From: a virus
Direction: 5' to 3' (one strand)
DNA length: 23,391 nucleotides
Virus record (IMG/VR): IMGVR_UViG_3300027852_000170
Span: 1-23,391 of that record
Part shown: in pieces, positions 1,178 through 18,023 of the stretch
How the letters are laid out: the number at the start of each line of letters is the position of its first letter
Position numbering within the stretch: position 1 is the stretch's first letter
Made by a program: the position numbers and the translations under genes
The notes under the pieces: generated by a model
Seen by the model: the letters and a program-made list of their open reading frames with translations, nothing else
Database searches by the model: none
What the model was told of the DNA's origin: nothing

Positions 1178-1244
1178 ATAAGAAATCATTATAAATTTTA
1201 AACAAGCTTTTTTCATCTGCATATTATAGGTGCAAATTTGTGCT

Positions 1245-1709
1245 ATGGCACGAAGAACTAAGCAAGAAAATGAAAAAAGGAAACAATGGGCTAAAGATGA
1301 ATTTTTACTCAAGGATCTAACGGGTAAAGAAATTGCTAAAAAAGTAGGAATTACCCAAAAGACATTCAGTAAATGGAGAGCTGAAGGAAAATGGGATGAT
1401 TTAAAAGCAGCTACCATTATTTCTAAACCACAACAACTAGCCCTATTGTATGAGCAAATAAACGAGCTCAACACCTCTATAAAATCTAGACCACAAGGTG
1501 AGCGCTTTGCTGATTCAAAAGAAGCAAGTACACTTATCAATCTTACTAAATCGATTCAATACCTCGAGGGTGATCTTGGCTTATCTGAAATTATCAATGT
1601 ATCAGTACCCTTACTAAAATATATCAAGTCAATTAATTATGAAGATTCTCAAAAATTAAAAGGCTATTTCGACAGCTTTATAAGTGATAAGATCAGTGGG
1701 AACAATTAG
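1245..1709 (+). CDS. Small terminase-like HTH protein
   Basis: A 154-aa protein. I chose ATG 1245 (MARRTKQE), because the frame upstream offers only a GTG at 1230. Residues about 22-47 form a helix-turn-helix (LTGKEIAKKVGITQKTFSKW), the usual N-terminal DNA-binding module of small terminase subunits that recognise the phage DNA for packaging. The C-terminal half is helical and hydrophilic. It is first in the plus-strand packaging operon and its 3' end overlaps the start of the large terminase, which is the main support for the call. Without the context it could be any small HTH protein. Confidence 0.7.
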   Translation: MARRTKQENEKRKQWAKDEFLLKDLTGKEIAKKVGITQKTFSKWRAEGKWDDLKAATIISKPQQLALLYEQINELNTSIKSRPQGERFADSKEASTLINLTKSIQYLEGDLGLSEIINVSVPLLKYIKSINYEDSQKLKGYFDSFISDKISGNN

Positions 1710-3240
1710 AAAACATACCGATCGTGATGCCATAAAAAAATGGGAACAATTCTCCAAAGGATTTGCTACACCCATTAGTGAAGATTTAATCGAATCTGCA
1801 AAAGAGAAAATTGATCGAACTCAAAAACTATTAGGAAACTTTGAAAAATTCTGTTATTACTATTTTCCTAAAATAACCAAAGCTAAGTTTGCAAAATGGC
1901 ATAAGAAATTCACCAAACATTTAATTGAATCTAAATTCAACATCAATATTGCAGTAGCAAAAGTTTGTCGTGATATGGCCAAGAGCTCTGTCACAGTTTT
2001 ACTTGTAATATTTATGTATTACAATGGCCAGTTTAGATCACTAGGTCTATTTTCTCATAACTATGATAATGCAGAAACTCTTTTAAAACCCATTAAAACG
2101 GCATTAGAAAAAAATGAATTGCTGATTCGCGACTTTGGATCAAAACAAAGTTTAGGTAATTGGACCTCTGGAAGTTTTACAACAAATGATGGGGTGAGCT
2201 TTAAAGCCTTTGGAGCAGGACAAACTCCAAGAGGAAGTAAAAATGATGAGTCCGATCGTTTAGACTTTTTAATCTTCGATGACTTTGATCATCCAGAGGT
2301 GTGTATGAATCCGGAACGATTGGATAAAAACTGGAAATTTGTCGAAGGAGATTGTTTTGGAGCCTTGCACGTAACGGGTAAAAAATGGGTCATATTTCTT
2401 AATAATAAAATTGCTGAAGATTGCATCATTCAAAGAATGTGGGACAAATGCCTTAGAGAGTTTCCTGATGCATTTCTTACTACCATCAACTTAACAGACG
2501 GAGAAGGAATATCCATGTGGCCTGAGGCATATTCTGATCAAGAATGTAAAGAAATGATTGCCTTGGTAGGAGATGAATCGGATACAGAATATTTTAACAA
2601 TCCTTCAGAAAAAGGAAAAGAGTTTTTAAAAGAATGGTTCCAGTATAAAAAACTACCTCCACTCAACCAATATAAACATTTAGTAGCTTATTTAGATGGT
2701 GGATTTAAAAAGACTAAAAGTAGTGATACCAAAGCACTAATATTATTAGGTTTTATGAATGGCGAATATCATCTACGTAAATGTTATGTAGAAAATGTGA
2801 CCATTGGTTCCATGATTGCTTGGCATTATGATTTAGATGAGTTTTTAATAAGTAAAAATGCAACTGCAGTTTGGTGGATGGAAGAGGTATTTCTATTAAG
2901 TCTATTACATGATCATTTTGATGCTGCAGTAGAAAAATATACCTACCGAATCCCTATGAAAGGAGATAAACGAAGCAAGCCTGATAAGGACCTTCGAATA
3001 TCAAATACCGCAGGTTATTTTGAAAGAGGAAAATTCTGGTTAGATGAATCCTTAAAAAATGACAGATACGCAAATAGACTTATCCAACAATATTTAAAAT
3101 TTAAAAGTGGAGTACGTAACAATGAAAAGGATGGTCCTGATGCTGTAGAAGGAGCTATCTATTTATTAAACGAAATGGCTAGAGATGCTACTGGAAGCCT
3201 TGGCGTTGGAACGAGTCGTAAAAACAAATTTAAAATATGA
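1684..3240 (+). CDS. Terminase large subunit (Mu gp28-like)
   Basis: About 518 aa; packages DNA into proheads using an ATPase and a nuclease domain. The N-terminal ATPase has a degenerate Walker A (CRDMAKSS, about 95-102, lacking the leading Gly) and a clear Walker B (LDFLIFDDFD, about 193-202). The RNase H-like nuclease begins with YLDGGF (Asp about 337), has a second acidic residue in SSDTKAL, and ends with GPDAVEGAIYLL (Asp about 485), the usual spacing of TerL catalytic acids. The first in-frame ATG is near residue 97, inside the ATPase, so the true start must be a GTG, either 1684 or 1696; both overlap the preceding gene. The stop overlaps the next ATG (ATGA). Confidence 0.88.
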   Translation: MIRSVGTIRKHTDRDAIKKWEQFSKGFATPISEDLIESAKEKIDRTQKLLGNFEKFCYYYFPKITKAKFAKWHKKFTKHLIESKFNINIAVAKVCRDMAKSSVTVLLVIFMYYNGQFRSLGLFSHNYDNAETLLKPIKTALEKNELLIRDFGSKQSLGNWTSGSFTTNDGVSFKAFGAGQTPRGSKNDESDRLDFLIFDDFDHPEVCMNPERLDKNWKFVEGDCFGALHVTGKKWVIFLNNKIAEDCIIQRMWDKCLREFPDAFLTTINLTDGEGISMWPEAYSDQECKEMIALVGDESDTEYFNNPSEKGKEFLKEWFQYKKLPPLNQYKHLVAYLDGGFKKTKSSDTKALILLGFMNGEYHLRKCYVENVTIGSMIAWHYDLDEFLISKNATAVWWMEEVFLLSLLHDHFDAAVEKYTYRIPMKGDKRSKPDKDLRISNTAGYFERGKFWLDESLKNDRYANRLIQQYLKFKSGVRNNEKDGPDAVEGAIYLLNEMARDATGSLGVGTSRKNKFKI

Positions 3241-3668
3241 GCACATTTATAACAAAACCGGATTATGCTGTACACATTCGAAACAACCGTTTGGATGGTA
3301 TTGTGGACTTTGATGATAGTCTCCTGGACAAAGCAGAGCTCAGAGCAATTAAAGTAATGAAAAGTCATTTAAATGCTCGATTCAATGTTGAAGAGATTTT
3401 CAATAAAGAGGATGGAGCAAGAGATGAAGCTGTACTAGGATATTGTTTAGATATCACACTTTATTATTTATATAGAATGGCCAATCCGAGAAAAGTTCCA
3501 AACTATCGAAAGGAAGCTTATATGGATGCTATGGATTGGCTTGATGGTGTTAAAGAAGGAAGTATCAATCCTGATGGCTTACCTCTTTCATTGGATGAAG
3601 ATGGTAAAAATACAAAAGCCGAATTCCGATATGGAAGTATGGCAAAAAGAACCAATCACATTAGTTAA
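3237..3668 (+). CDS. Phage head/neck protein, DUF1320 (Mu gp36-like)
   Basis: A 143-aa acidic, mostly helical protein starting at an ATG that overlaps the terminase stop, so translation is probably coupled. Length, the helical central part (AVLGYCLDITLYYLYRM, about 65-81) and the neighbourhood fit the DUF1320/gp36 family of Mu-like phages, thought to act in head completion or head-tail joining. It lies between terminase and portal genes rather than after the major capsid gene as in Mu. The family call is from pattern memory and gene order; no catalytic motif is expected or seen. Confidence 0.65.
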   Translation: MSTFITKPDYAVHIRNNRLDGIVDFDDSLLDKAELRAIKVMKSHLNARFNVEEIFNKEDGARDEAVLGYCLDITLYYLYRMANPRKVPNYRKEAYMDAMDWLDGVKEGSINPDGLPLSLDEDGKNTKAEFRYGSMAKRTNHIS

Positions 3669-3670
3669 TT

Positions 3671-6163
3671 ATGGCAAAGTCAAGTACACATAGTAAAATA
3701 GGAAAAAAATATACTGCATACTCAGGTACTGTAAAAACTGCAGGTACTCGAATGTCAAGTCAAGATATTAGCAATTGGGTTCGTGCGATCAATTCAGCAA
3801 GAAGTATCACCAATCCAAAACGTCGAATGTTATTAGACCTATATGATAATATAAAAATCGATGGCCACCTGGAGAGTGTAATGGAAAAAAGAACCATTTC
3901 AGTCATTAATAAAAAACTCATTTTTACCGAAAAGGACAAACAAGGTGAAGACAATGAGTTCATGCGTGATATGGTTTTAAACACACCTTGGATGCGTAAA
4001 CTTCTAAAGGAATCTATGAATGCTATTTATTATGGCCATTCATTAATTGAGTTGATTCCTAAAGATGGAATGATTGACGATGCTGTTTTAATTCCAAGAA
4101 TGAATGTCGTGCCTGAAAAAGGATTTTTAATGCAGGATATCGGGACTCCAGATAAAGGTGACTTTTACCGTGAAGAAACATTTCAATATTACAATTATTT
4201 AATTGAAGTAGGAGGTCCAAAGGAATATGGAAAATTAATGACTGCAGCACAATACGTAATTTATAAACGTGGTGGCTTTGGAGATTGGGCACAATTTGCT
4301 GAAATGTTTGGGTCTCCTTTTAGAGTTGGAAAGTATAATAAATACGATGATGATGTTCGTAAAAAATTAGAAAATTCTTTAGAACAAATGGGATCAGCTC
4401 CTTGGGCAACTATTCCGGAAGGAGCTTCAATTGAGTTTATAGATAATAACAATACTGGAAAAAGTGATGTTTTTAATAAGCTGATTGATTTCTGTAATAG
4501 TGAACTATCAAAGTTATTTGTGGGTCAAACCATGACTACAGATGATGGTTCCAGTAGATCACAAAGTGAAGTGCACAAAGAAGGTGAGGAAGATATCAAT
4601 ATGAGTGATATGATCGAGCTTGAATTTATGCTTAACTGGCAATTTGTACCTAAACTTAGAAACATTGGATATCCAATTCCTGAAGGGACAATTTCTTTTG
4701 ATCAAACGAAAGCACTTTCAATGTTAGATCGAATTAAAATCGACATGGAAGTATCTTCAAGAGTCCCTTATCCAAAAGAGTACTGGTATAAAACCTATGG
4801 TATTGATAAGCCTACAGATGAAGAAATAGTAGAATGGGAAAAACAACAAAATTCAAAACGGGAAGGCCCTCCAGTGCCACCGGAACCCAATCCGAAAAAA
4901 AAAAAGGAAGCGCCAAAGAATGAAGTGATCATTCAGCAAATTACTCATGTCACTAATGCATATTCTCCTTCAACAGAAGATGAGGATTACATCAAGAGCT
5001 TCTATGATAAATCAGTTACCTATTCACCTAAAAGACTTCAAAAGGAACTTAAAAAATTAACAGCTGCTATTCGTAAAGATTTTCCTGTCAATGCAGGTTA
5101 TATGCAACCTGATTATATTGCCGGTGCAATGCTTGAATTAAACATCAATCGATTTGGTTTTAATAAAACAGTTGCGCAAGTAATAGAACTCAACAAAGCA
5201 TTAGCCATTGATGAAGGCTACGGGGCTTTTAGAAAGCGTGCTGTTGAGATTATGGGTAAGTTTGATAACTACCTGCAGACAGAATATAACGATGCGATTG
5301 CAACGGCTCAAAATGCCTCCAGCTATATTCGCCAAATGGCTCAAAAAGATCTTTATCCATACTGGAGATATGAAACAGTAGGAGATGATAAAGTACGCTT
5401 ATCACATGATGCATTGGATGGTAAAATATTTAATATTAATGACAAAGCTTCAAGAGGATTGATTCCTCCAAATGAACATGGCTGCCGTTGTTTTAGAACC
5501 GTGCTTCGTTCCTCTGAAGTAAAGAAAAGTCAGGTTAGTAGTTTTGCTTCAGCTAAAAAGGCCCTTGGAAAAGATTTTGATTCCATGAAAGAAAACGGGT
5601 TCCTAGTTAATCGGGGTGAAACTCTCGAGGTATTCGATTTAAATAAAACCTATATCAGTAAATTACCTAAAGGAGCTGTGCCTGAAACATCAACTGTTGA
5701 TTATACTTTGTATGGACTTCAAACAATAGCTACTATTCGAAAGGCTAGAAAACTTAAAAATATAAACATTAATAAAACAGATACTCCTGCTAAACTTTTA
5801 AAAGCTTTTGATAAAAAGAAAGTGAAAGCTGGAGATCATGATGTGAATATTTTAAAAGACTATTCCGGAAGAGAGATCGCCATTAATTTAAATACCTTTA
5901 AAAAGCATTTAAAAGGGAAATATATTACCTCTTTTCAAAGAGATAAAATATGGAATAATGTAAAAAATGTATTGTTGTCTCCAGATGAAGTGTACTTAAA
6001 CAAATATGCAAATAAATTACAATACACTTATTTGAAATTTTATAATGATCAGGTAATGGTTGTGATCGTGAAAGTGAATAAAGAAACAGGAATGGAAATT
6101 ACAACCTGGTATTTGAGTGATCTTCCTGAAGAAAAAATTAGAAGTGGAATCCTTATAAAATAG
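3671..6163 (+). CDS. Portal (DUF935) - MuF head morphogenesis - C-terminal nuclease-like fusion
   Basis: An 830-aa protein in three parts. Residues 1-395 match the Mu gp29/DUF935 portal type (YYGHSLIELIP, MFGSPFRVGKY, LSKLFVGQTMT). A Pro/Lys-rich linker (about 399-415) follows. Residues 430-612 are a MuF (gp30-like) minor head domain with R576, H579 and the terminal PPNEHGCRCF (C605, C607). Residues about 715-830 are extra. They carry KKH (744-746), R757, a PDEV turn (771-774), then Tyr/Lys-rich beta strands and a VVIVKV strand (797-802), resembling the BECR-fold RNase toxins (PBECR-type) often fused to MuF proteins. Portal and MuF are separate genes in Mu. The portal and MuF parts are solid; the nuclease call is inference from strand pattern and precedent. 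The reading frame is intact. Confidence 0.8.
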   Translation: MAKSSTHSKIGKKYTAYSGTVKTAGTRMSSQDISNWVRAINSARSITNPKRRMLLDLYDNIKIDGHLESVMEKRTISVINKKLIFTEKDKQGEDNEFMRDMVLNTPWMRKLLKESMNAIYYGHSLIELIPKDGMIDDAVLIPRMNVVPEKGFLMQDIGTPDKGDFYREETFQYYNYLIEVGGPKEYGKLMTAAQYVIYKRGGFGDWAQFAEMFGSPFRVGKYNKYDDDVRKKLENSLEQMGSAPWATIPEGASIEFIDNNNTGKSDVFNKLIDFCNSELSKLFVGQTMTTDDGSSRSQSEVHKEGEEDINMSDMIELEFMLNWQFVPKLRNIGYPIPEGTISFDQTKALSMLDRIKIDMEVSSRVPYPKEYWYKTYGIDKPTDEEIVEWEKQQNSKREGPPVPPEPNPKKKKEAPKNEVIIQQITHVTNAYSPSTEDEDYIKSFYDKSVTYSPKRLQKELKKLTAAIRKDFPVNAGYMQPDYIAGAMLELNINRFGFNKTVAQVIELNKALAIDEGYGAFRKRAVEIMGKFDNYLQTEYNDAIATAQNASSYIRQMAQKDLYPYWRYETVGDDKVRLSHDALDGKIFNINDKASRGLIPPNEHGCRCFRTVLRSSEVKKSQVSSFASAKKALGKDFDSMKENGFLVNRGETLEVFDLNKTYISKLPKGAVPETSTVDYTLYGLQTIATIRKARKLKNININKTDTPAKLLKAFDKKKVKAGDHDVNILKDYSGREIAINLNTFKKHLKGKYITSFQRDKIWNNVKNVLLSPDEVYLNKYANKLQYTYLKFYNDQVMVVIVKVNKETGMEITTWYLSDLPEEKIRSGILIK

Positions 6164-6254
6164 GAGAACCTTTAAATAGAGCTTCCCGAGTGGGTTATTT
6201 ATACGATACAGTCTCCTGCTCTTGATCCTTTATTATTAAGCTCTATTTAAAGGT
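6162..6254 (+). ncRNA. Candidate structured RNA: 17-bp stem with a possible pseudoknot
   Basis: ACCTTTAAATAGAGCTT (6168-6184) and AAGCTCTATTTAAAGGT (6238-6254) are a perfect 17-bp inverted repeat enclosing 53 nt. Inside are a small hairpin CCC-GAGT-GGG (6185-6194) and TCTCCT (6212-6217). The latter is exactly complementary to AGGAGA (6162-6167), which immediately precedes the left arm, so a pseudoknot is possible. The element begins at the stop codon of the portal-MuF gene and ends 20 nt before the next ATG. It is not followed by a U run, so it is not a plain terminator. Alternatives are an mRNA processing or stability element, or the remnant of a small inverted-repeat element. No known riboswitch or ribozyme core was recognised. 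Confidence 0.5.
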
Positions 6255-6274
6255 ACAGTACAAATATACAAAAA

Positions 6275-6847
6275 ATGAGCCAAAAATATCCACATCCATT
6301 TAGTAAGGTAGCAAAGGACTTTCGTAGGTTTAGAAAGGACCTTCCTGAAGTGGTAAGTAATATTGCGCTGAATGATTTTGTGCATAATTTTAAAAGGCAG
6401 GGATATGTAAATCAAAATGGTGTGTTTATTCCCTGGAAAGGAACTAAGAAAAAAGCACGTAGAACCTTAGGTAGAAAAAGCAAAGGAATTTTAATTCGTT
6501 CGGGAAGATTAATGAGAAGTATGCGAACTGCAGCTCGCTATAATGAAGCTCGTGTAGTTTCAAACTTGCCTTATGCAAAAGCGCATAATGAAGGTGTAAG
6601 TGAAACTGTAAAAGTTAGATCCTATAAACGTAATCGATATGGAAAAAAGGAAGAAAAATATAAAACTCGATCAGGAAGATCTCGCACAAAAGTAGTTAAT
6701 GTGAAAAAGGGCTCTGGTGTAGTTAAACAACATAATCGTAGAATGAAGCTCGATCGAAGGCCTTTTATGATTACAAGTAAAACTATCCTGAAAGAAACCG
6801 AAAAACACGTATTTAATGAACTCGATAAAATCTGGAATAAATTATGA
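6275..6847 (+). CDS. Phage virion morphogenesis protein (Mu gpG-like)
   Basis: A 190-aa very basic protein (Arg/Lys-rich, notably 65-85 and 108-160). It shows the pattern of the gpG/HK97-gp10-like tail-completion family: an N-terminal helix ending in NDFVHNFKRQGY, then FIPWKGTKKKA, then RSGRLMRSMR followed by VVSNLPYAKAHNEG, and a closing RRPFMITSKTI strand. In Mu-like phages this protein helps join or stabilise head and tail. The segment KVRSYKRNRYGKKEEKYKTR is an insertion that lengthens it. Its TGA stop overlaps the next ATG (ATGA), indicating translational coupling. Confidence 0.75.
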   Translation: MSQKYPHPFSKVAKDFRRFRKDLPEVVSNIALNDFVHNFKRQGYVNQNGVFIPWKGTKKKARRTLGRKSKGILIRSGRLMRSMRTAARYNEARVVSNLPYAKAHNEGVSETVKVRSYKRNRYGKKEEKYKTRSGRSRTKVVNVKKGSGVVKQHNRRMKLDRRPFMITSKTILKETEKHVFNELDKIWNKL

Positions 6848-7380
6848 TACTATCAAACTTTTATGAAGCCTTAATACAACGATTTGAAGATAAGAATATC
6901 GGAAATGAATATTTTGATATCTGGAATGATCAACTCTATCGAAATGATAATAAAGAGGATAACCTGTTCTTTAACTATCCTGCTATCTTTTTACAATGGG
7001 ATCCTATTGAATGGGAAACTTTAGGAAAAAGAAAACAACAAGCTGAGTCTACCTTTAATTTAATCATTGCAAGTGAATCATTGCATGAAACTGGATCCAT
7101 CGAGGAACCTGAAGAAAGAGGACGAGGCCTTGAACATTTAATTCTATTAGATAATGTATTTGCAGCACTCCAGGGTTTTAATAAATCTTATGAAGATGGG
7201 AGTGCTTTTGGGAGTATTTCCCGAACTGGAACCGCTTATGATCATGAAGCTTCAGGCGGTCCCATTATAGCACATATATTGCCTTTTAAATGTCGATTGT
7301 TAGATATAGCTGCTCAGCGAACTTTCGTTACTAGAAATCCAGAGTTTGATAATACAGTAGATGTTGATAGTGATATATGA
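6844..7380 (+). CDS. Phage neck/tail-terminator-like protein
   Basis: A 178-aa acidic protein, coupled by ATGA to the gpG-like gene. Size, position and an alternating strand-helix pattern (STFNLIIASESLHE, EHLILLDNVFAALQGF, GGPIIAHILPFKCRLLD) fit tail-terminator or neck proteins, which follow gpG-like genes in many tailed phages. I do not recognise a specific family. It is the last gene of the plus-strand operon; its stop at 7380 lies two bases from the end of the converging minus-strand operon, and no terminator hairpin is visible between them. The rest of the tail must therefore be encoded elsewhere, probably left of the window. Confidence 0.5.
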   Translation: MILSNFYEALIQRFEDKNIGNEYFDIWNDQLYRNDNKEDNLFFNYPAIFLQWDPIEWETLGKRKQQAESTFNLIIASESLHETGSIEEPEERGRGLEHLILLDNVFAALQGFNKSYEDGSAFGSISRTGTAYDHEASGGPIIAHILPFKCRLLDIAAQRTFVTRNPEFDNTVDVDSDI

Positions 7381-7970: not shown

Positions 7971-8267
7971 TTATGTAAACTCATAAAACTCGTTGTCTCC
8001 TTTGATTGTGGTCATAAAAGGAAAATCAGCTTTATCTATTTTTTGTATTTGATTCATCAGAACTTTAGAGCCTGTAAAAACCACATTTCTAAAACCCTTA
8101 TTTTCTATTTGCAAAGTCAAGTATTTTGTTCCTGGTGTTTGAGTTGAGTCTTTAATTTTAAAATCAAGTACTATTATTTCAGTATTTAAAATTCGTCCTA
8201 TTTTTATTTTATCTCCTGTAAATGACGAAATTTCAGGAGCTATATTAAAATCACTAAATTTCTTCAT
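7971..8267 (-). CDS. RT-coupled 98-aa protein, candidate DGR accessory factor
   Basis: A 98-aa protein whose ATG (8267) lies inside the end of the RT gene; the frames overlap by 14 bp, so translation is very likely coupled to that of the RT. The sequence is mostly short beta strands (IKIGRILNTEIIVLDFKI, TKYLTLQIENKGFRNVVFTG) with one short helix (GSKVLMNQIQKI), compatible with a small OB-fold or other beta-barrel nucleic-acid binding domain. It is not a four-helix protein and therefore not a typical Avd, the usual DGR accessory factor. The function is unknown. Binding of template RNA or cDNA is an inference from coupling and fold pattern alone. Confidence 0.65.
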   Translation of the reverse strand: MKKFSDFNIAPEISSFTGDKIKIGRILNTEIIVLDFKIKDSTQTPGTKYLTLQIENKGFRNVVFTGSKVLMNQIQKIDKADFPFMTTIKGDNEFYEFT

Positions 8268-9216
8268 TCGGTAATAGTTTTTTAATTAAATGATTCGAAT
8301 CACAATGTTTTGCCCAACCTAAATAAGAAGCTGTGGAAGCTTTATTAGGGTTGCTTTTCAGCATACGTGCAAAATTCTTTTTAATACTCTTACGAAGCTT
8401 CGTGTGCGTATGAAAATGAACATAACCCACAAAGTCAATACCCCGAGATTGAACAGGAAAAATTTGATAATTGCCCTTTACGTCTAGTTTTAAATTGGAT
8501 TTTAAATAGATTTTAATATCATTTAAAAGGGCATGCAAGTAAGGTTTGTTAGATGCTAGTATAACGATATCATCTGCATATCTGAAGTAGTATTTTACAG
8601 CCTTATCTTCTTTGATCCAATGATCAAAATAAGTTAAATAGAAATTAGCAAAGGTTTGGCTCAAATAATTCCCAATAGGTAGTCCTGGAGCACTCTCGAT
8701 AATTTCATCTAACAACCAAAATAAATCTGAGTCTTTAAACTTCTTTCGAAGTAAGGATTTTAAAATATTATGATCAATATTAGGGTAGAATTTAGTAACA
8801 TCGAGTTTTAAACAGTATGTTGTTTCAGAAATATTTTTAAGTGCTAGTTTTAATTTATCTGAAGCTTGATGTATTCCTTTTCCTTTGATGGAGCTATATG
8901 TATCTGCAGTAAAACACCTGATAAAAATAGGCTCTAAAATATTCATAATTGCATGATGCGTGATTCTATCAGGAAAGTAAGGCAACCTGTACACATTGCG
9001 CTCTTTTGGCTCATATACTTTGAAAACTTGATACGATGATGTTTTAAATGTTTTTACCTGGAGCATTTTTTGAAGCTTCAAAAGATTAGCTTCTTTATTC
9101 TTGTTATGAAGAATCACACCATAACGAGTAGATTTTCCTTTTTGAGCATTTTCATCTGCTAATCTAAGATTATCGATGTCTGTAATTAAGTGATATAAAT
9201 TTCCTATTCTTTTCAT
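8254..9216 (-). CDS. Reverse transcriptase of a diversity-generating retroelement
   Basis: A 320-aa RT from ATG 9216 (MKRIGNLYH, the typical opening of DGR RTs). A GTG at 9237 would add seven residues and is less likely. The active site includes LDVTKFYPNID (first catalytic Asp at 139), GLPIGNYLSQ (178-187) and YADD (213-216). The IGxxxSQ form of RT domain 4, in place of QGxxxSP of group II intron RTs, marks the DGR class. There is no maturase or endonuclease domain and the length is normal for DGR RTs. The protein makes an adenine-mutagenised cDNA from the adjacent template repeat and directs it into the two variable repeats upstream. It overlaps the following gene by 14 bp. Confidence 0.95.
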   Translation of the reverse strand: MKRIGNLYHLITDIDNLRLADENAQKGKSTRYGVILHNKNKEANLLKLQKMLQVKTFKTSSYQVFKVYEPKERNVYRLPYFPDRITHHAIMNILEPIFIRCFTADTYSSIKGKGIHQASDKLKLALKNISETTYCLKLDVTKFYPNIDHNILKSLLRKKFKDSDLFWLLDEIIESAPGLPIGNYLSQTFANFYLTYFDHWIKEDKAVKYYFRYADDIVILASNKPYLHALLNDIKIYLKSNLKLDVKGNYQIFPVQSRGIDFVGYVHFHTHTKLRKSIKKNFARMLKSNPNKASTASYLGWAKHCDSNHLIKKLLPNEEI

Positions 9217-9297
9217 TTGCCTTATTAAGTAGGTCACCTTCCATTGGGTACCAATGCCCTTTTTAATGTTGTTATTTTTTGCTTTGTTAGCAAGGTC

Positions 9298-9411
9298 TGT
9301 AATGCAATAATTTTATAAGATGGGCGCTGACGTTCGAGTTCGTATTCCAGTTATCGTAGTTGTTATACGAGAAACTGACACCCGAAGGAGAACTACAGCA
9401 ACGGCATTACA
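9298..9411 (-). ncRNA. DGR template RNA region with flanking 8-bp inverted repeat
   Basis: The 187-bp interval between the VP1 stop and the RT start contains the template repeat and no gene. TGTAATGC (9298-9305) and GCATTACA (9404-9411) are a perfect inverted repeat enclosing it, which could pair in the transcript and present the template as a loop. DGR template RNAs are normally structured and extend beyond the repeat. The transcript ends are unknown, so the boundaries given are only those of the inverted repeat. Confidence 0.6.
9322..9393 (-). repeat. DGR template repeat (TR), 72 bp
   Basis: Read on the minus strand, this 72-bp segment matches the variable repeats of the two upstream genes without gaps. 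In the reading frame of the targets it encodes SPSGVSFS, YNNYDNWNTN and SNVSA, with six Asn codons of the AAY type. AAY is the classic template codon because adenine mutation there gives many residues without stop codons. It has 18 adenines on this strand. The distal end reads GCGCCCATC where both variable repeats read GCGCCCGCC, an IMH*/IMH-like difference marking the copy that is only donor. Confidence 0.95.
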
Positions 9412-9423
9412 CAACCCTAATTA

Positions 9424-9801
9424 TTATTCTATCTTTCTTTCATAAACCATTATATCCTTGTATAATTCAGGGAACGTTTCGGCTATATGTTCAGCTGCTT
9501 CACTCGATTCTGAAACGAGGCGGGCGCCGACGCCCGAGATCGTAGCCCAGCGATCGTAGTCGAGAAACGAGAAACCGACACCCGAAGGAGAACCCATTTT
9601 AAACCATGGATTGTATTTATTCCATTCTCCGTCCGTAAAATCTGGTTGAAACTCTGGGTTTACAGCATCAACTACTACAAATAGTTTTGCCATTGAAATA
9701 AGCGCTTGTTTATGTCGTTCAGGAACGCCTTTAATAGTAATTGCGTTAGGATCTAAATTTTCTAGCTTAAAAGCTTCTTCTACTGATTTAATTTTTTTCA
9801 T
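9424..9801 (-). CDS. DGR target protein 1 (VP1), 125 aa, with internal variable region
   Basis: ATG 9801; 125 aa. An N-terminal part (1-50) of unknown function is followed by DFTDGEWNKYNPWFKMGSPSGVGFS (54-78). The variable repeat spans residues about 70-94, then an invariant tail (GARLVSESSEAAEHI...) of about 30 residues. The variable positions are spaced like surface positions of a C-type-lectin-like scaffold around fixed Y, D, W, S and V residues. It shares the PxFKMGSPSGVGFS and VGAR frame with target 2. I recall this small-protein family in Bacteroidota prophages (P-W-F...VGSRLCF pattern) but no function is known. It has no signal peptide and no tail-fibre features, and it ends 30 bp before the template repeat. 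Confidence 0.9.
   Translation of the reverse strand: MKKIKSVEEAFKLENLDPNAITIKGVPERHKQALISMAKLFVVVDAVNPEFQPDFTDGEWNKYNPWFKMGSPSGVGFSFLDYDRWATISGVGARLVSESSEAAEHIAETFPELYKDIMVYERKIE
9522..9593 (-). repeat. DGR variable repeat VR1 in target 1
   Basis: A 72-bp ungapped match to the template. On the coding strand it differs at 13 of 72 positions and all 13 are template adenines (to G, T or C). The 54 non-adenine positions are identical. Encoded changes relative to the template include Ser to Gly, Tyr to Phe, and Asn to Leu, Asp, Arg, Ala, Ile and Gly. Three bases past its distal end is an imperfect hairpin (9503-9519, arms CTCGATT and AAACGAG, six of seven pairs), similar in position to the hairpins that follow the target repeat in other DGRs. 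Confidence 0.95.
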
Positions 9802-9811
9802 GATTTTAATA

Positions 9812-10273
9812 TTAAGAGGTTCTTGATTGTTTGTACTCTGGTAAAAATTTCTTTACTGCATCCAACATATGTTTCTTTGCTTTTGGTCCACAAAAAACTT
9901 GGCGGGCGCCGACGAGCGAGTACGAATTCCAGTCATCGTAGTTGAAATACGAGAAACCGACACCCGAAGGAGAACCCATCTTAAAATATGGCCAATATTT
10001 ATAGGTTCCATCTGTAAAGTCTGGTAACTTACCTTCATTATAAGCTGCTACAATTAGCTTCTCTTTTCGATAACCTATTTCATCTGGAAGTAAACCTTCG
10101 TTTACCTTATCAAATTCTAGCCTAGTAATACTATTGGCAGCAAGTATGTCATCAAAAGTTTGTAATCTTTCGATAATTGATTTTGGAGTTTCTTTAAATT
10201 TAATGACTCCTTCTTTTTTATTGAGATAATCTACCTCGAACCCTTCAGGGATTTCAAATTTTAGTGTTTTCAT
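9812..10273 (-). CDS. DGR target protein 2 (VP2), 153 aa, with internal variable region
   Basis: ATG 10273 overlaps the stop of the preceding gene (ATGA). The N-terminus (MKTLKFEIPEGFEVDYLNKK) is a compact beta motif, followed by a helical middle (30-80). Then comes PDFTDGTYKYWPYFKMG, the variable segment (100-124: SPSGVGFSYFNYDDWNSYSLVGAR), and a 29-residue basic tail. It is paralogous to target 1 from about residue 84 onward but has an unrelated N-terminus, so the two present one variable scaffold on different N-terminal parts. The template-matching segment is internal, not C-terminal. Function unknown; a binding protein is the natural inference for a DGR target. Confidence 0.9.
   Translation of the reverse strand: MKTLKFEIPEGFEVDYLNKKEGVIKFKETPKSIIERLQTFDDILAANSITRLEFDKVNEGLLPDEIGYRKEKLIVAAYNEGKLPDFTDGTYKYWPYFKMGSPSGVGFSYFNYDDWNSYSLVGARQVFCGPKAKKHMLDAVKKFLPEYKQSRTS
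9904..9975 (-). repeat. DGR variable repeat VR2 in target 2
   Basis: A 72-bp ungapped match to the template. On the coding strand it differs at 9 positions, all at template adenines. The Ser-to-Gly changes at both ends of the repeat are the same as in VR1, while the central changes differ (Asn to Phe, Asp, Tyr, Leu; Thr to Ser). Eight bases beyond its distal end is a small 5-bp hairpin TTTTG/CAAAA (9881-9895), weaker than the one after VR1. Confidence 0.95.
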
Positions 10274-13961: not shown

Positions 13962-14588
13962 TTAATTTATTTGTCCGTGATAAATAGCTGCTTTTTCAGC
14001 ATTGATTATAAAGGGTTCACCTCCACCAAATCGACTCTCTGGAAAAGCCTTAAATCCTTCTACTCTAATTTTAATCATGGCATCATTCTTAATATGTTTA
14101 GCTAAACTTCCACGAGGTGATTTACCATCTGCATGAGAAATGAAAATCCATAGCTTATTTGGAAATTCTTCTTTTAACTTTAGGAATGATTCCTTATTTA
14201 GATTTGCATATTGCAAACTGTCTGTAATAATAATCTCAGGACTTCTTTGACTTTTCAATCGTTGTTTTACTTTACCAAAAGGCACTCTGTTTCCAAGTAG
14301 TATTTTTTCTTGAACCATTGCTAAATTCGATCGCTTAGAAGTGAGCTTAAAGCTTTCAGTTTTACCCTCTTCCAGTGAGTTTATTAGTACTTTATGTTTT
14401 ACAAATTGTGTCAAGTATTTTGCTAATTGAACAGTAAAATTTGTTTTTCCTTGATATGATTCTCCATATACAATCCAAACTCCTGCCTTTTCTGGTTTTC
14501 CAAAGCTTTCTTCCCATTTTCCTGTAAATTCCATTACATCGAATGAGGTAGTCTCCAGCTCATGAACCGAAAAGAAATCTTTACCCAT
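13962..14588 (-). CDS. RecA-like P-loop ATPase
   Basis: A 208-aa protein. VWIVYGESYQGKTNF (37-51) is a Walker A, EIIITDSLQY (118-127, Asp123) is a Walker B, and LWIFISHADGKSPRG (about 146-160) resembles sensor and loop elements of RecA/DnaB-fold ATPases. The protein is short for a helicase and carries only the core. In phage early operons such proteins serve in recombination or replication (Sak4-like single-strand annealing proteins have this fold and size). Sak4-like is my preferred reading, not proven. The start overlaps the upstream gene by 8 bp. Confidence 0.75.
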   Translation of the reverse strand: MGKDFFSVHELETTSFDVMEFTGKWEESFGKPEKAGVWIVYGESYQGKTNFTVQLAKYLTQFVKHKVLINSLEEGKTESFKLTSKRSNLAMVQEKILLGNRVPFGKVKQRLKSQRSPEIIITDSLQYANLNKESFLKLKEEFPNKLWIFISHADGKSPRGSLAKHIKNDAMIKIRVEGFKAFPESRFGGGEPFIINAEKAAIYHGQIN

Positions 14589-15054
14589 TAATATTCTTTT
14601 TATTCATTTTCTTTTTAATTCGAGAAATAGACATATCAGAGGTGTTAAAATCCTTAGCTATTGCCTTTAGCGTATCTCCTTTTTCAAGGCGCTTTTCTAT
14701 TTTCTCTACATCCTTTTTAGAAAGTTGACTCAGGCTACTTCGTTTCACCTCTTTGGTTCCCATTTTTGGGTTGAATCCACAGGGTTTCCATTCTAAATTG
14801 GTATAATGAAATCCTTTACTTTTTTCGATGCGTGTTGCACACCAGCGTGGATTATCAGCCATACCATTCCAACACTCACAAACTAATTTTGCAACACTGT
14901 TTGAACGACCTTTGAAGTACACGTACTTTAAGTCTGTATTTCGTTCTTTGCGATTGGCTTCTTTTACTTCTAAAGTTTCGCCACAACACAAAACACTACT
15001 GCCATCTTCATTGACTTTTAAACCTTCTATTTCTGGATGATATCTATATGCCAT
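14581..15054 (-). CDS. HNH-derived protein with lost catalytic residues and a C-terminal HTH
   Basis: A 157-aa protein. Residues 1-93 follow the plan of phage HNH endonucleases with an N-terminal NUMOD-like strand region: SVAKLVCECWNGMADNPRW...FHYTNLEWKPCG. But the V-N-H-x-D-G motif that normally precedes N-x-x-x-N-L-E-W is replaced (WCATRIEKSKG), so catalytic His residues appear to be missing. Residues 113-151 are a helix-turn-helix (KKDVEKIEKRLEKGDTLKAIAKDFNTSDMSISRIKKKM). It is likely a DNA-binding regulator made from a homing-endonuclease scaffold. It sits directly after the MuB-like gene (11-bp overlap). Confidence 0.65.
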   Translation of the reverse strand: MAYRYHPEIEGLKVNEDGSSVLCCGETLEVKEANRKERNTDLKYVYFKGRSNSVAKLVCECWNGMADNPRWCATRIEKSKGFHYTNLEWKPCGFNPKMGTKEVKRSSLSQLSKKDVEKIEKRLEKGDTLKAIAKDFNTSDMSISRIKKKMNKKNING

Positions 15055-15895
15055 TTTCTAATTTGTAAATTCTTATTAACTCAGCAGCGATTCGTAAATC
15101 ACCATTGCATTTTTTTTGGATTGTACTTATCACTACTCTATCTGTGATTCCCTGTGCAGCTGCAAGTAGAGCTACATCTGCAGCACTTGTTTGTTCTAAT
15201 TCGATAAAGGTTCCAAATCGACTCAAGAGCTCTTCATATCCTTTTCTTCGGTTTCTAACTCCATCTTCCAATCGTTTTTTGAAATAATATGTTGACTGAA
15301 GTACAATGCTGCACTTCCATTTTAGTTCGTTATAGAATGTGATCAGGAAGTATAACATGCAATCACGAAGTTTATCCACTTCATCAACAATTAACTCTGG
15401 TGGAGTATCGTAATTTTTCAATCCTTTTATTATCTCTTCCATCATTTGTGGAATGCGATTGTGAGGATTACGAATTCCCATCTCCATTAAAATTTGCTGA
15501 AGGAAATGTTTTTCATCCCAATAAGAAGCGCATTCAACTCTGATAACATCTGAATTTTCAGAAGCATATTTTTTTGATACTTCTGTTTTACCAGATCCTG
15601 CATTTGCAATGATGGAAACAACCGATTGTTGCTGTTTTACTTTTTCTAATGTGGTTAGTAAAAACTTTGCATTGGTTGTTTCTACAAATTGCCAAGAGTG
15701 AGAATTATAGCCAATTTGATTGCCAATGTTTCTAAACATTTCATTACTGTAAGGTTCCCAATTCCCATTAATTAAATGAGAGATTACTGCAGTAGATACT
15801 CCTTTTAAAGAAGCAGCTGCTTTATTCTGTGAACCTTTACGATTCACATAGACTTGTAATAAGTCAACTATTTTTTGTTTCTCTTTTTGTACCAT
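15044..15895 (-). CDS. MuB-like AAA+ ATPase, transposition target selector
   Basis: 283 aa. An N-terminal HTH (about 22-47, KAAASLKGVSTAVISHLINGNW) precedes an AAA+ core with Walker A ANAGSGKT (97-104), Walker B ELIVDEVDKL (167-176) and a sensor-like SIVLQSTYYFKKRL. The C-terminal helices end with CNGDLRIAAELIRIYKL, as in Mu B and related transposition ATPases. It binds target DNA, recruits the transposase and gives target immunity. It follows the transposase gene by 7 bp, the standard A-B order of transposable phages. Confidence 0.9.
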   Translation of the reverse strand: MVQKEKQKIVDLLQVYVNRKGSQNKAAASLKGVSTAVISHLINGNWEPYSNEMFRNIGNQIGYNSHSWQFVETTNAKFLLTTLEKVKQQQSVVSIIANAGSGKTEVSKKYASENSDVIRVECASYWDEKHFLQQILMEMGIRNPHNRIPQMMEEIIKGLKNYDTPPELIVDEVDKLRDCMLYFLITFYNELKWKCSIVLQSTYYFKKRLEDGVRNRRKGYEELLSRFGTFIELEQTSAADVALLAAAQGITDRVVISTIQKKCNGDLRIAAELIRIYKLENGI

Positions 15896-15902
15896 GGTAA
15901 CT

Positions 15903-17924
15903 TTAGTTATTAATTATTCTATCAAATAGTGAATCACTATCACTTTGTAAATTTTCTTCTTTGGTTGCATATGCTGCACGTTTGGCAGCAAACTCGTAGT
16001 TGTTTTGCCCTTCAATTAGTGTATCTCTACTTATTCCTGTACGCTCAACAATATCTAAGTAGGCATTCCAATCATGCGATCTTACTTTTTCACGTACCTC
16101 AAGGTCCTTAAGCATCTGTTTATGCTCTCCTGGTTGTTTCAAGATGGCCACTTCTACATGTCTTCGTTTCTTTTGAGCATATCCTACAAATACCTTTTCT
16201 TCATTTTCGTTAATTCGATAAAGGGCTACATAGTCCTCCAGGTATTCCGGATCATAACTCACTATTAATTTTTGTTGCACATACTTGAGTTGGAAATCGA
16301 TATCGACATTACCATGTTCATCATATACTTCATATAAGTAATCTTGACCAGCTACCGTTAAAGGCATTCCGTGTGCATAGTATTTCTTAGGCTTAGTTTC
16401 ATTGATCCAAAACATTGAAATACGTTCTAGTGTTCCAAGTTCCTGAGTGTATTTTGATTTGATATTGAAGTACTCATTTCGAGTTTTTGAAGCTTTCTTC
16501 GATCGTAATCGTTCGTTCCATTCCTGGACCATTATCTCCCAATGTTTCTGAAGCTCTTCAAAAGAGGGTAAGGCTCCTTTATTTTCGTGAATAAAATCTA
16601 AGTTAGCTTTAGATCGTAATTGTTTTGTTTTGATACCTTGGCCATCAGAGAACCAACGTTTATTTATAACCTGTTGCTGCAGTCTGTTAAAAACCTGTTC
16701 AATAGGATTTGATTTTCTACCTACTTTGTGATGGTAATGTTGACCTCCTTTTGCAATTACTTTACTATAAAGCTCTTGCATTCGTTTTGATCTATGAGCG
16801 GACTGAGCATCGTACGTAAATAAATAAGGTTTTGCTCCAGCTTCATCTACTGCCATTCTAAGTGCTATAAAATGATCAATATGATTCTCAGTTAATGAAA
16901 ATGAATAACCAAGTATCTTTTCAGAAAACACATCGATAACAACATTGATCTTACAGACCGCTGCCATCTTAGATTTATTGTCCCAATAATGAACTGCATC
17001 AAGCTTAGTTCCATCAATGGCCCAGTGAGCATTTGGAAATAATCTATTTTTATCTTTGCTTAATGTATGAGCATAACGTTTATTGTAAACTTCCTCGCCG
17101 TGCCTTGCTAAGGTCCAAATACGTTCTCTTTCAGGTTTCATTAAGTAATTCGCAATACCAGACTCAGATAAATAAGGCCATCCATAATTACATCTCACTT
17201 TATTATAAAGCTCATGGAGATCATAAAATGAATTCTTAATAGGTAGGCATTGTTGAGCCATTAACCAATCTCCAATTTCATCAGTTATTTTAATTGAATT
17301 AGAATTACAATAATTATCATGAATTAAACCTTCTAGTCCTGTACGTGGATACCTCTTGTTTGGTTTTTCTAAAATGCAAGATTCGTATTTTGCTCGTAGA
17401 GCTCTGGAGTTGGTTGGTAGATCAAAAGGATATCGATCTTTAATTTCTTTGGAGAGGCTATGGATTGATTTTGTAAAGCGACTCCATAATTCGCCTTTGT
17501 TGATTTTTGGGTTTGCAGTAGTGATCTTTGCATGAACCTCTTTAATTGCATTAAACACAATTACATTGGCTGTATAGGTCTCAACTGCTTTTTCGTTTAC
17601 TTCAGATAAATACCTACTATCTTCAAGTTCGTAATTTGCAAAAAATGCAGCTACATTTTCATCATACTTTAAGTACCTGGAGAATGGAATTGTTTTACTT
17701 TCTTCGTAAGGATCTATCTGCAGATCATGCTCTATGATATTACGGAAGCGTTGTGGAAGACTATCATAAATGTATAAAGCGTAATTTCCTAAACCTCTAC
17801 CAGAACGAGCCTTTTTGATTTTACCTTTGTGGACCAAAAACTTCAAATTTGAAATAGAAGTTATTCCAGTTTCATCAAGCCAATTAGCTCTTACACATAA
17901 AGTATTTCCGTAATATTCAAACAT
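15903..17924 (-). CDS. MuA-like DDE transposase of a transposable prophage
   Basis: 673 aa from ATG 17924 (MFEYYGNTLCVR). The longer frame upstream is discounted because it would translate a GC-rich hairpin. N-terminal winged-helix-type DNA-binding segments (MFEYYGNTLCVRANWL...GYALYIYDSLP-like) recognise the phage ends. The catalytic core of the rve/RNase H type shows HWAIDGTKLD (Asp304), FTYDAQSAH (Asp372) and SNPIEQVFNRLQ (Glu409). A beta-barrel region and charged tail follow, as in MuA domain III. It performs strand transfer for integration and replicative transposition. It is the first gene of the long early operon. Confidence 0.92.
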   Translation of the reverse strand: MFEYYGNTLCVRANWLDETGITSISNLKFLVHKGKIKKARSGRGLGNYALYIYDSLPQRFRNIIEHDLQIDPYEESKTIPFSRYLKYDENVAAFFANYELEDSRYLSEVNEKAVETYTANVIVFNAIKEVHAKITTANPKINKGELWSRFTKSIHSLSKEIKDRYPFDLPTNSRALRAKYESCILEKPNKRYPRTGLEGLIHDNYCNSNSIKITDEIGDWLMAQQCLPIKNSFYDLHELYNKVRCNYGWPYLSESGIANYLMKPERERIWTLARHGEEVYNKRYAHTLSKDKNRLFPNAHWAIDGTKLDAVHYWDNKSKMAAVCKINVVIDVFSEKILGYSFSLTENHIDHFIALRMAVDEAGAKPYLFTYDAQSAHRSKRMQELYSKVIAKGGQHYHHKVGRKSNPIEQVFNRLQQQVINKRWFSDGQGIKTKQLRSKANLDFIHENKGALPSFEELQKHWEIMVQEWNERLRSKKASKTRNEYFNIKSKYTQELGTLERISMFWINETKPKKYYAHGMPLTVAGQDYLYEVYDEHGNVDIDFQLKYVQQKLIVSYDPEYLEDYVALYRINENEEKVFVGYAQKKRRHVEVAILKQPGEHKQMLKDLEVREKVRSHDWNAYLDIVERTGISRDTLIEGQNNYEFAAKRAAYATKEENLQSDSDSLFDRIINN

Positions 17925-17943
17925 ATTATTTTTTTTACTTAGT

Positions 17944-17983
17944 TCCCGCCGTGGTGTCGAAACCACGCTAAGCCGTGGCGGGA
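17944..17983. promoter_or_regulatory. GC-rich hairpin in the transposase leader with alternative pairings
   Basis: TCCCGCC (17944-17950) and GGCGGGA (17977-17983) are a perfect 7-bp inverted repeat in otherwise AT-rich DNA, 20 bp before the transposase ATG. Inside, GTGGT/ACCAC (17951-17966) and CCACG/CGTGG (17963-17978) are mutually exclusive hairpins sharing the CCAC segment. GCCGTGG also occurs twice in direct order. This may be an attenuator-like leader or a protein-binding site; it lacks a long U run on the transposase side. Confidence 0.45.
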
Positions 17984-17986
17984 TTT

Positions 17987-18023
17987 TCACTATATTTGGA
18001 TTACCAATCTTAAACTATAGTGA
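17987..18023. promoter_or_regulatory. Divergent promoter region with 8-bp inverted repeat and a TAnnTTTG box
   Basis: TCACTATA (17987-17994) and TATAGTGA (18016-18023) form an inverted repeat centred between the transposase leader and the zinc-ribbon gene, suitable for a dimeric regulator. TATATTTG (17991-17998, +) matches the Bacteroidota -7 box TAnnTTTG and lies 27 bp before the plus-strand ATG. No clear -33 TTTG is seen. The promoter call is therefore tentative. Confidence 0.35.

Follow-up and report, generated by a model that had tools for sequence, protein, structure and literature searches.

We analyzed a stretch of viral DNA of 23,391 nucleotides (IMG/VR record IMGVR_UViG_3300027852_000170, positions 1 to 23,391; hereafter the window) that carries a diversity-generating retroelement (DGR). 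The source record is a Mu-like viral contig and a fragment. Terminase, portal/head, and neck genes occupy its plus strand at 1230-7380. The minus strand harbors a unit headed by a MuA-type gene (15903-17990) and a MuB-type gene (15044-15895), which are followed in order by replication-type genes, two small target genes, a template repeat (TR), a reverse transcriptase (RT) gene, and a gene encoding a 98-amino-acid (98-aa) protein. The TR lies 85 nt from the RT. Judged by their sequences, the RT, the TR, and the two targets make up a true DGR on this Mu-like contig. A first-pass annotation had called this DGR complete; the RT, the TR, and both target genes bear that out, but the word needs qualifying, because Avd, the best-known accessory protein, was not detected and another conserved gene stands in its place.

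Each target gene contains a variable repeat (VR) that departs from the TR at adenines only. In our script alignment, the TR spans 9321-9394 (minus strand; 74 nt, 20 adenines), VR1 spans 9521-9594, and VR2 spans 9903-9976, both also on the minus strand, with 15 and 11 of the 20 adenines changed, respectively. The first-pass annotation had drawn 72-bp repeats at 9322-9393, 9522-9593, and 9904-9975; their placement and strand held, but the maximal segment with adenine-only differences is 74 nt in all three. Over the shorter extent, the computer alignment returned every number previously counted by hand: 13 differences from the TR in VR1 and 9 in VR2, all 22 of them at the 18 adenines of the TR, and none at the 54 non-adenine positions of either repeat (0/108). 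Given the number of differences, such confinement has hypergeometric probabilities of 1.2e-10 (VR1) and 5.7e-7 (VR2). When the window was scanned with adenines as wildcards, the TR, VR1, and VR2 were the sole matches, and the next site had 28 mismatches. Outside the VRs, the target genes agree at 166 of 290 aligned columns (57%), as opposed to 54/54 non-adenine positions within them. Three substitutions are common to VR1 and VR2, which disagree with each other at 12 adenine sites. Nonetheless, not all of the differences from the TR are random mutagenic hits. Their restriction to adenines stands, but two per VR are framework sites fixed in nearly all relatives; the fixed A-to-G differences in the window are those at GTGTC[A]G and GTC[A]GC, together with the two edge sites of the 74-nt repeat. 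Since these sites are fixed in relatives, about 11 differences in VR1 and about 7 in VR2 belong to the randomized core.

A survey script that admits only adenine-directed differences found the layout of the window again in nearly all of the loci surveyed, and in >100 altogether, with the TR ∼170 nt before the RT and VRs ∼190 and ∼570 nt before the TR in two small tandem genes; loci carry from 1 to 4 VRs, most often 2. In two loci, from Dyadobacter (L124) and an Ignavibacteria metagenome-assembled genome (L118), VRs of a single TR occur both adjoining it and 3-7 kb away, and the four VRs of the former lie on both sides of the RT. Across 43 core positions of 201 distinct TR-VR pairs, drawn from 107 loci, the adenine cells were changed in 1903 of 3016 cases (63%) and the non-adenine cells in 9 of 5627 (0.16%); because the pair detector required an adenine-only run of 45-50 nt or more, this bias is a property of the detected pairs, and an untrimmed position table was used to show where homology ends. 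Changes spread over non-adenine positions in relatives, which the first-pass annotation had named as evidence against a DGR, were accordingly not what we found. The VR bases opposite core TR adenines were A (646), G (486), T (381), and C (241). Diversified residues fall at AAY codons, with no stop among them, and both target frames of the window are open. At four or five adenines near the edges, the VR base is nearly constant instead of random. The combination of A in the TR and G in the VR recurs in 95/97 cases at position -52, 93/94 at -45, 189/190 at +3, and 167/168 at +10, and the VR base is mostly T at +14. The TR itself has A at +3 in 190 of the 201 pairs, and in the viral set the VR codons around this position are almost frozen (CGC in 128/132, CTT in 120/132, and TGC in 109/132). 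In the window, the corresponding 3′ ends lie approximately at 9509-9527 (VR1) and 9891-9909 (VR2), on the minus strand, and read GTCGGC..CCGCC where the TR has GTCAGC..CCATC. In BPP-1, 3′ differences of this type between the initiation of mutagenic homing (IMH) site and its TR counterpart IMH* set the direction of transfer (PMC3240598). The fixed differences of this lineage look like an IMH/IMH* pair, here placed mostly at adenines.

Near-identical relatives provided a direct view of activity. The alignment of two of them (L013 and L088) extends over 16,948 bp and contains 21 differences, every one of which falls in the VRs (11 + 10) and at a TR adenine, while their TRs are identical; new VRs over an unchanged TR, the check proposed in the first-pass annotation, are thus on record. 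In another pair (L015 and L016), with 13.1 kb in common, VR2 differs at 11 TR-adenine sites and VR1 is identical. Relatives thus directly show in situ activity, with the two VRs rewritten separately. The first-pass annotation had claimed both for the phage of the window; twin relatives rewritten at TR adenines sustain these claims for the lineage, but neither event was seen in this exact phage. The latter two phages, otherwise near-identical, also differ by a second cluster of 14 differences away from the DGR (L015, 2896-3099).

The RT gene (8254-9216, minus strand) encodes the YADD and IGNYLSQ motifs and matches phrog_1423 (E 1.1e-117) and RVT_1. The program-listed frame (8254-9237) begins at a GTG codon at 9237, but the ATG at 9216 (MKRIGNL...) is the likelier start, because relatives match only from residue 6-8 on. 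RTs 65-74% identical to this protein are carried by 80 viral contigs, and a further 73 loci in named genomes, mostly of Bacteroidota, were also found with it. Its best match in the PDB is 8ub7 ("Reverse transcriptase," 328 aa; E 9e-40), with the next entries at 1e-13 or worse. This entry, equal in length to BPP-1 Brt, is presumably Brt in its ribonucleoprotein. In an IQ-TREE tree that included four group II intron RTs, the window RT fell with BPP-1 Brt (a long branch), crAss-like, and Firmicutes DGR RTs, and a 100/100 branch parted it from the intron enzymes. A group II intron RT, one of the identities that would have spoken against a DGR, is ruled out by this tree, which holds no retron RTs, together with a TIGR04416 score of 103 bits against a cutoff of 300.

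The RNA around the TR is predicted to be structured. A 12-bp stem encloses the TR: its 5′ arm, GGUUGUGUAAUGC (9404-9416, minus strand), pairs with its 3′ arm, GCAUUACAGACC (9294-9305, minus strand), both by covariation and in the minimum free energy fold. Across relatives, 97% of the cells of this stem are paired, and changes on both sides occur in 9 of the 12 pairs. The spacer between the TR and the RT (9213-9297, minus strand) folds into a hairpin (9279-9293) and a stem (9255-9260/9231-9236), and these two spacer hairpins covary as well. Taken together, the stem and the spacer hairpins are 93% paired, with 216 double-changed cells, whereas shuffles gave 64 such cells and slid controls 19-30. 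A per-locus shuffle test of contiguous TR-flanking stems gave p<=0.05 in 39% of loci; since this test is underpowered, we took covariation as decisive. A simple scan of BPP-1 returned no clear long match to the TR-enclosing stem. Inverted repeats flank the TR in Dysgonomonas (13 bp; L151) and in phage Perkons (16 bp; L159), which suggests that the stem reaches past this lineage. The spacer resembles the Rfam family RT-17 (RF03020): the window scores 31.6 bits (E 2e-4), below the gathering threshold of 40.4, and two relatives score above it (44.9 bits in L034 and 43.5 in L003). RF03020 matches TR-RT spacers of DGRs, so RT-17 RNAs may be segments of the template RNAs of these elements; the RT-17 model spans the spacer only, whereas the TR-enclosing stem extends across to the other side of the TR. 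Further Rfam matches (SNORD36, nos_TCE, and Afu_455) were dismissed as chance. No GC-rich hairpin with a GRNA loop was found 3′ of any of 196 VRs by a search that recovered the BPP-1 control (8-bp stem, GAAA). Because the VRs lie 20-37 codons before the stop, a hairpin of this type would have to be coding.

Downstream of the RT lies the gene for the 98-aa protein (7971-8267, minus strand), a proposed accessory factor, which overlaps the RT stop by 14 bp. It is present in 79 of 81 viral loci and overlaps the end of the RT in all 79; in one of the two loci lacking it (L065), the contig ends within 63 bases of the RT stop. In one relative, the RT and this protein form one continuous reading frame (L111, 9788-11251). 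Among the named-genome loci, 56 of 73 have the gene, eight of them with no phrog_11581 targets (see below). The protein has no Pfam match, and Foldseek alone returned no significant one. Its AF2 model is a beta-barrel with a predicted local distance difference test (pLDDT) score of 92, for which the best VIA-align rows are mostly oligonucleotide/oligosaccharide-binding (OB) folds, including bacterial single-stranded DNA-binding proteins (SSBs) and PriB, at Z scores of 5-6.8. We infer a nucleic acid-binding accessory factor. A search with PF22296, the family matched by BPP-1 Avd (positive control, 2e-37), found no Avd in the window or in 46 of 47 lineage records. The single case, in the record of L080, is a PF22296 protein (G046:C1:366-677; E 4e-26) ∼11 kb from the DGR targets. 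A literature search returned no paper joining a DGR with an OB fold; a 2018 NAR survey of DGRs and a 2017 paper on candidate RNAs were outside its reach.

The diversified proteins are small. Target gene 1 (9424-9801, minus strand; 125 aa) has its VR about 31 codons before the stop, a layout also seen in relatives, and target gene 2 (9812-10273, minus strand; 153 aa) has it about 29 codons before the stop. Both match phrog_11581 (E 3.7e-11 and 1.9e-4, respectively), as do 66 of 70 aligned target relatives; the targets belong to this one family. In the lineage, targets are encoded in tandem and measure ∼120-165 aa. They begin with N-terminal helices, followed by the VR region and, last, a C-terminal helix; confidence in the model is low across the VR (pLDDT about 50-67). 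Sequence searches (PDB, Pfam profiles) gave no tail or lectin match, and nothing usable came from structure searches with Foldseek (PDB and BFVD) or VIA-align, although the low confidence of the VR model means that this is not evidence against a C-type lectin fold. Whole-contig searches of 45 viral contigs and two host genomes revealed no copy of a target inside a long open reading frame. In non-Mu relatives, the 25 commonest families next to the targets comprise mainly methyltransferases, helicases, DnaC/DnaB, RecT, exonucleases, and portal/head proteins; tail genes are not excluded. The targets are apparently small, stand-alone proteins from the DNA metabolism side of the genome.

We consider it very probable that this is the DGR of a transposable (Mu-like) phage of Bacteroidota that works as follows. 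The TR-containing RNA would be held in the stem formed by its two flanks, with the structured spacer after it. The phage RT would copy the TR RNA, misincorporating opposite adenines, and the complementary DNA (cDNA) would overwrite the core of one VR or the other, independently, in the two small tandem genes. The G residues kept at the IMH-like 3′ end of the VR and at the 5′ framework sites may mark the VR as recipient, save essential Gly/Arg residues, or both. The 98-aa OB-fold-like protein probably does part of the job of Avd or of a host factor, most simply by binding single-stranded cDNA or RNA. Sequence data back the cassette, the adenine-only variation, the rewriting in close relatives, the covarying stems, the conservation of the 98-aa gene, and the lack of a detectable Avd or GC-rich hairpin; priming, the function of IMH, and the roles of the 98-aa protein and the targets we infer. 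Four points weigh against the proposal. Activity in this exact phage is deduced from relatives and from the contrast between VRs and flanks. The OB-fold Z scores (6.8 at most) are within the range of a mere common arrangement of strands. Several RTs of the wider DGR clade (crAss-like phages, BalMu-1, and Perkons) have no 98-aa gene nearby, and this gene may be genetically linked to the RT with no role in retrohoming.

A competing account casts the 98-aa protein as an SSB-like early protein of the phage that merely adjoins the RT. An OB-fold-like product encoded in an early operon would suit it, as would the related RTs lacking the gene; we nevertheless hold it to be rather unlikely, because the gene is kept with the RT in Mu-like and non-Mu phages and beside unrelated targets, overlaps the RT stop in all 79 loci, and is fused in frame to the RT once. 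The DGR might also be a silent relic, once active and now inactive in this phage, of which we have one copy on a fragmentary contig. This is improbable, given that the RT frame, its YADD motif, the TR-enclosing stem, the spacer hairpins, and the 98-aa gene are all intact, that the VRs match the TR at 54/54 non-adenine positions while their gene flanks have diverged to 57% identity, and that close relatives are plainly active. We give next to no credence to the view that the repeats arose by simple duplication and were then changed by gene conversion or by a deaminase, with the RT uninvolved. The three substitutions common to VR1 and VR2 speak for it, but a DGR-type RT lies 85 nt from the TR, the layout is repeated in more than 100 loci, and the occurrence of all four bases at core TR adenines rules out a deaminase.

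The targets could be receptor-binding virion proteins, as in BPP-1, crAss-like phages, and Hankyphage, whose genes happen to lie apart from those of the tail. Tail or receptor-binding proteins with C-type lectin folds do make up the majority of known phage DGR targets (PMC8144416, PMC10743442), and the VR residues vary at AAY codons, as they do in those systems. Conversely, the sequence and structure searches described above gave no tail or lectin match (with the VR model of low confidence) and no paralogue in a long reading frame, the neighbors in non-Mu relatives are chiefly DNA metabolism genes plus portal/head genes, and the window cassette belongs to the minus-strand unit headed by MuA/MuB. 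A virion role is hence a credible contender that falls somewhat short of probable, and an intracellular role is a guess that we rate slightly above it; acting inside the cell, the targets might, for example, counter host or rival phage factors. More tentative still, and doubtful as a whole, is the idea of a distinct DGR lineage in which an RT-coupled OB-fold protein replaces Avd, the template sits in an RNA stem, no hairpin after the VR is required, and the small products are intracellular rather than receptor-binding proteins of the virion.

Other genes of the window include, on the plus strand at the contig end (20920-23205), an EcoRI-type adenine methyltransferase (PF13651; E 7e-128) and, directly after it, a GmrSD_N/HNH protein with a PADLOC match to type II restriction enzymes; the two form a restriction-modification pair. 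An early-region protein (13962-14588, minus strand) shows weak iSTAND/ATPase similarity below the Pfam cutoff and is kept in Mu-like relatives (24 loci).

To our knowledge, nearly everything understood about how DGRs work comes from BPP-1, in which Avd and a hairpin following the VR are required. A common, naturally active lineage showing neither lets one ask which parts of retrohoming are essential. Should its targets act inside the cell, a phage would be using targeted protein hypermutation for something besides host recognition. The TR-enclosing stem would also suggest what part of RT-17, so far recognized just as an RNA associated with RTs, is likely to do.

Comparison with known systems places these features in context. 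The window resembles BPP-1 (Brt/Avd/Mtd) in its RT clade, its adenine-only VR changes, the location of the TR between target and RT, the structured RNA after the TR, and 3′ TR/VR differences like those of IMH*/IMH (PMC3240598, PMC12875486); in BPP-1, the folded spacer brings in the complex of RT and Avd (PMC12875486). The lineage of the window differs from BPP-1 in showing neither Avd nor the GC-rich GRNA-loop hairpin after the VR, in the additional OB-fold-like gene, in the position of the VR (20-37 codons before the stop instead of at the C terminus of the target), and in its targets, of 125-153 aa in the window and two or more in tandem in the lineage, compared to a tail fiber of 381 aa. 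The crAss-like DGRs (LMMB, cr52_1, and others) have the nearest annotated RTs in a phage collection (up to 56% identity) and likewise no Avd that we could find, but the targets next to their RTs carry tail protein annotations and their genomes lack a homologue of the 98-aa protein. Hankyphage is, like the window, a Mu-like transposable phage of Bacteroidota (Bacteroides) with a DGR (PMC6199706). However, it diversifies a single VR (in a large protein of the C-type lectin kind, at residues 2188-2225) and has an Avd-like open reading frame (PMC6199706), whereas the window has two tiny targets and no Avd. The Tentaclin phages nd4/nd12 and the Bacuni phages share the use of one TR for two target genes (PMC10743442, PMC8143477) but have lectin-fold targets of 234 aa or more and, in Bacuni, Avd. 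Against this background, the element described here is a DGR of a known kind, and what is new is the combination of features in its lineage.

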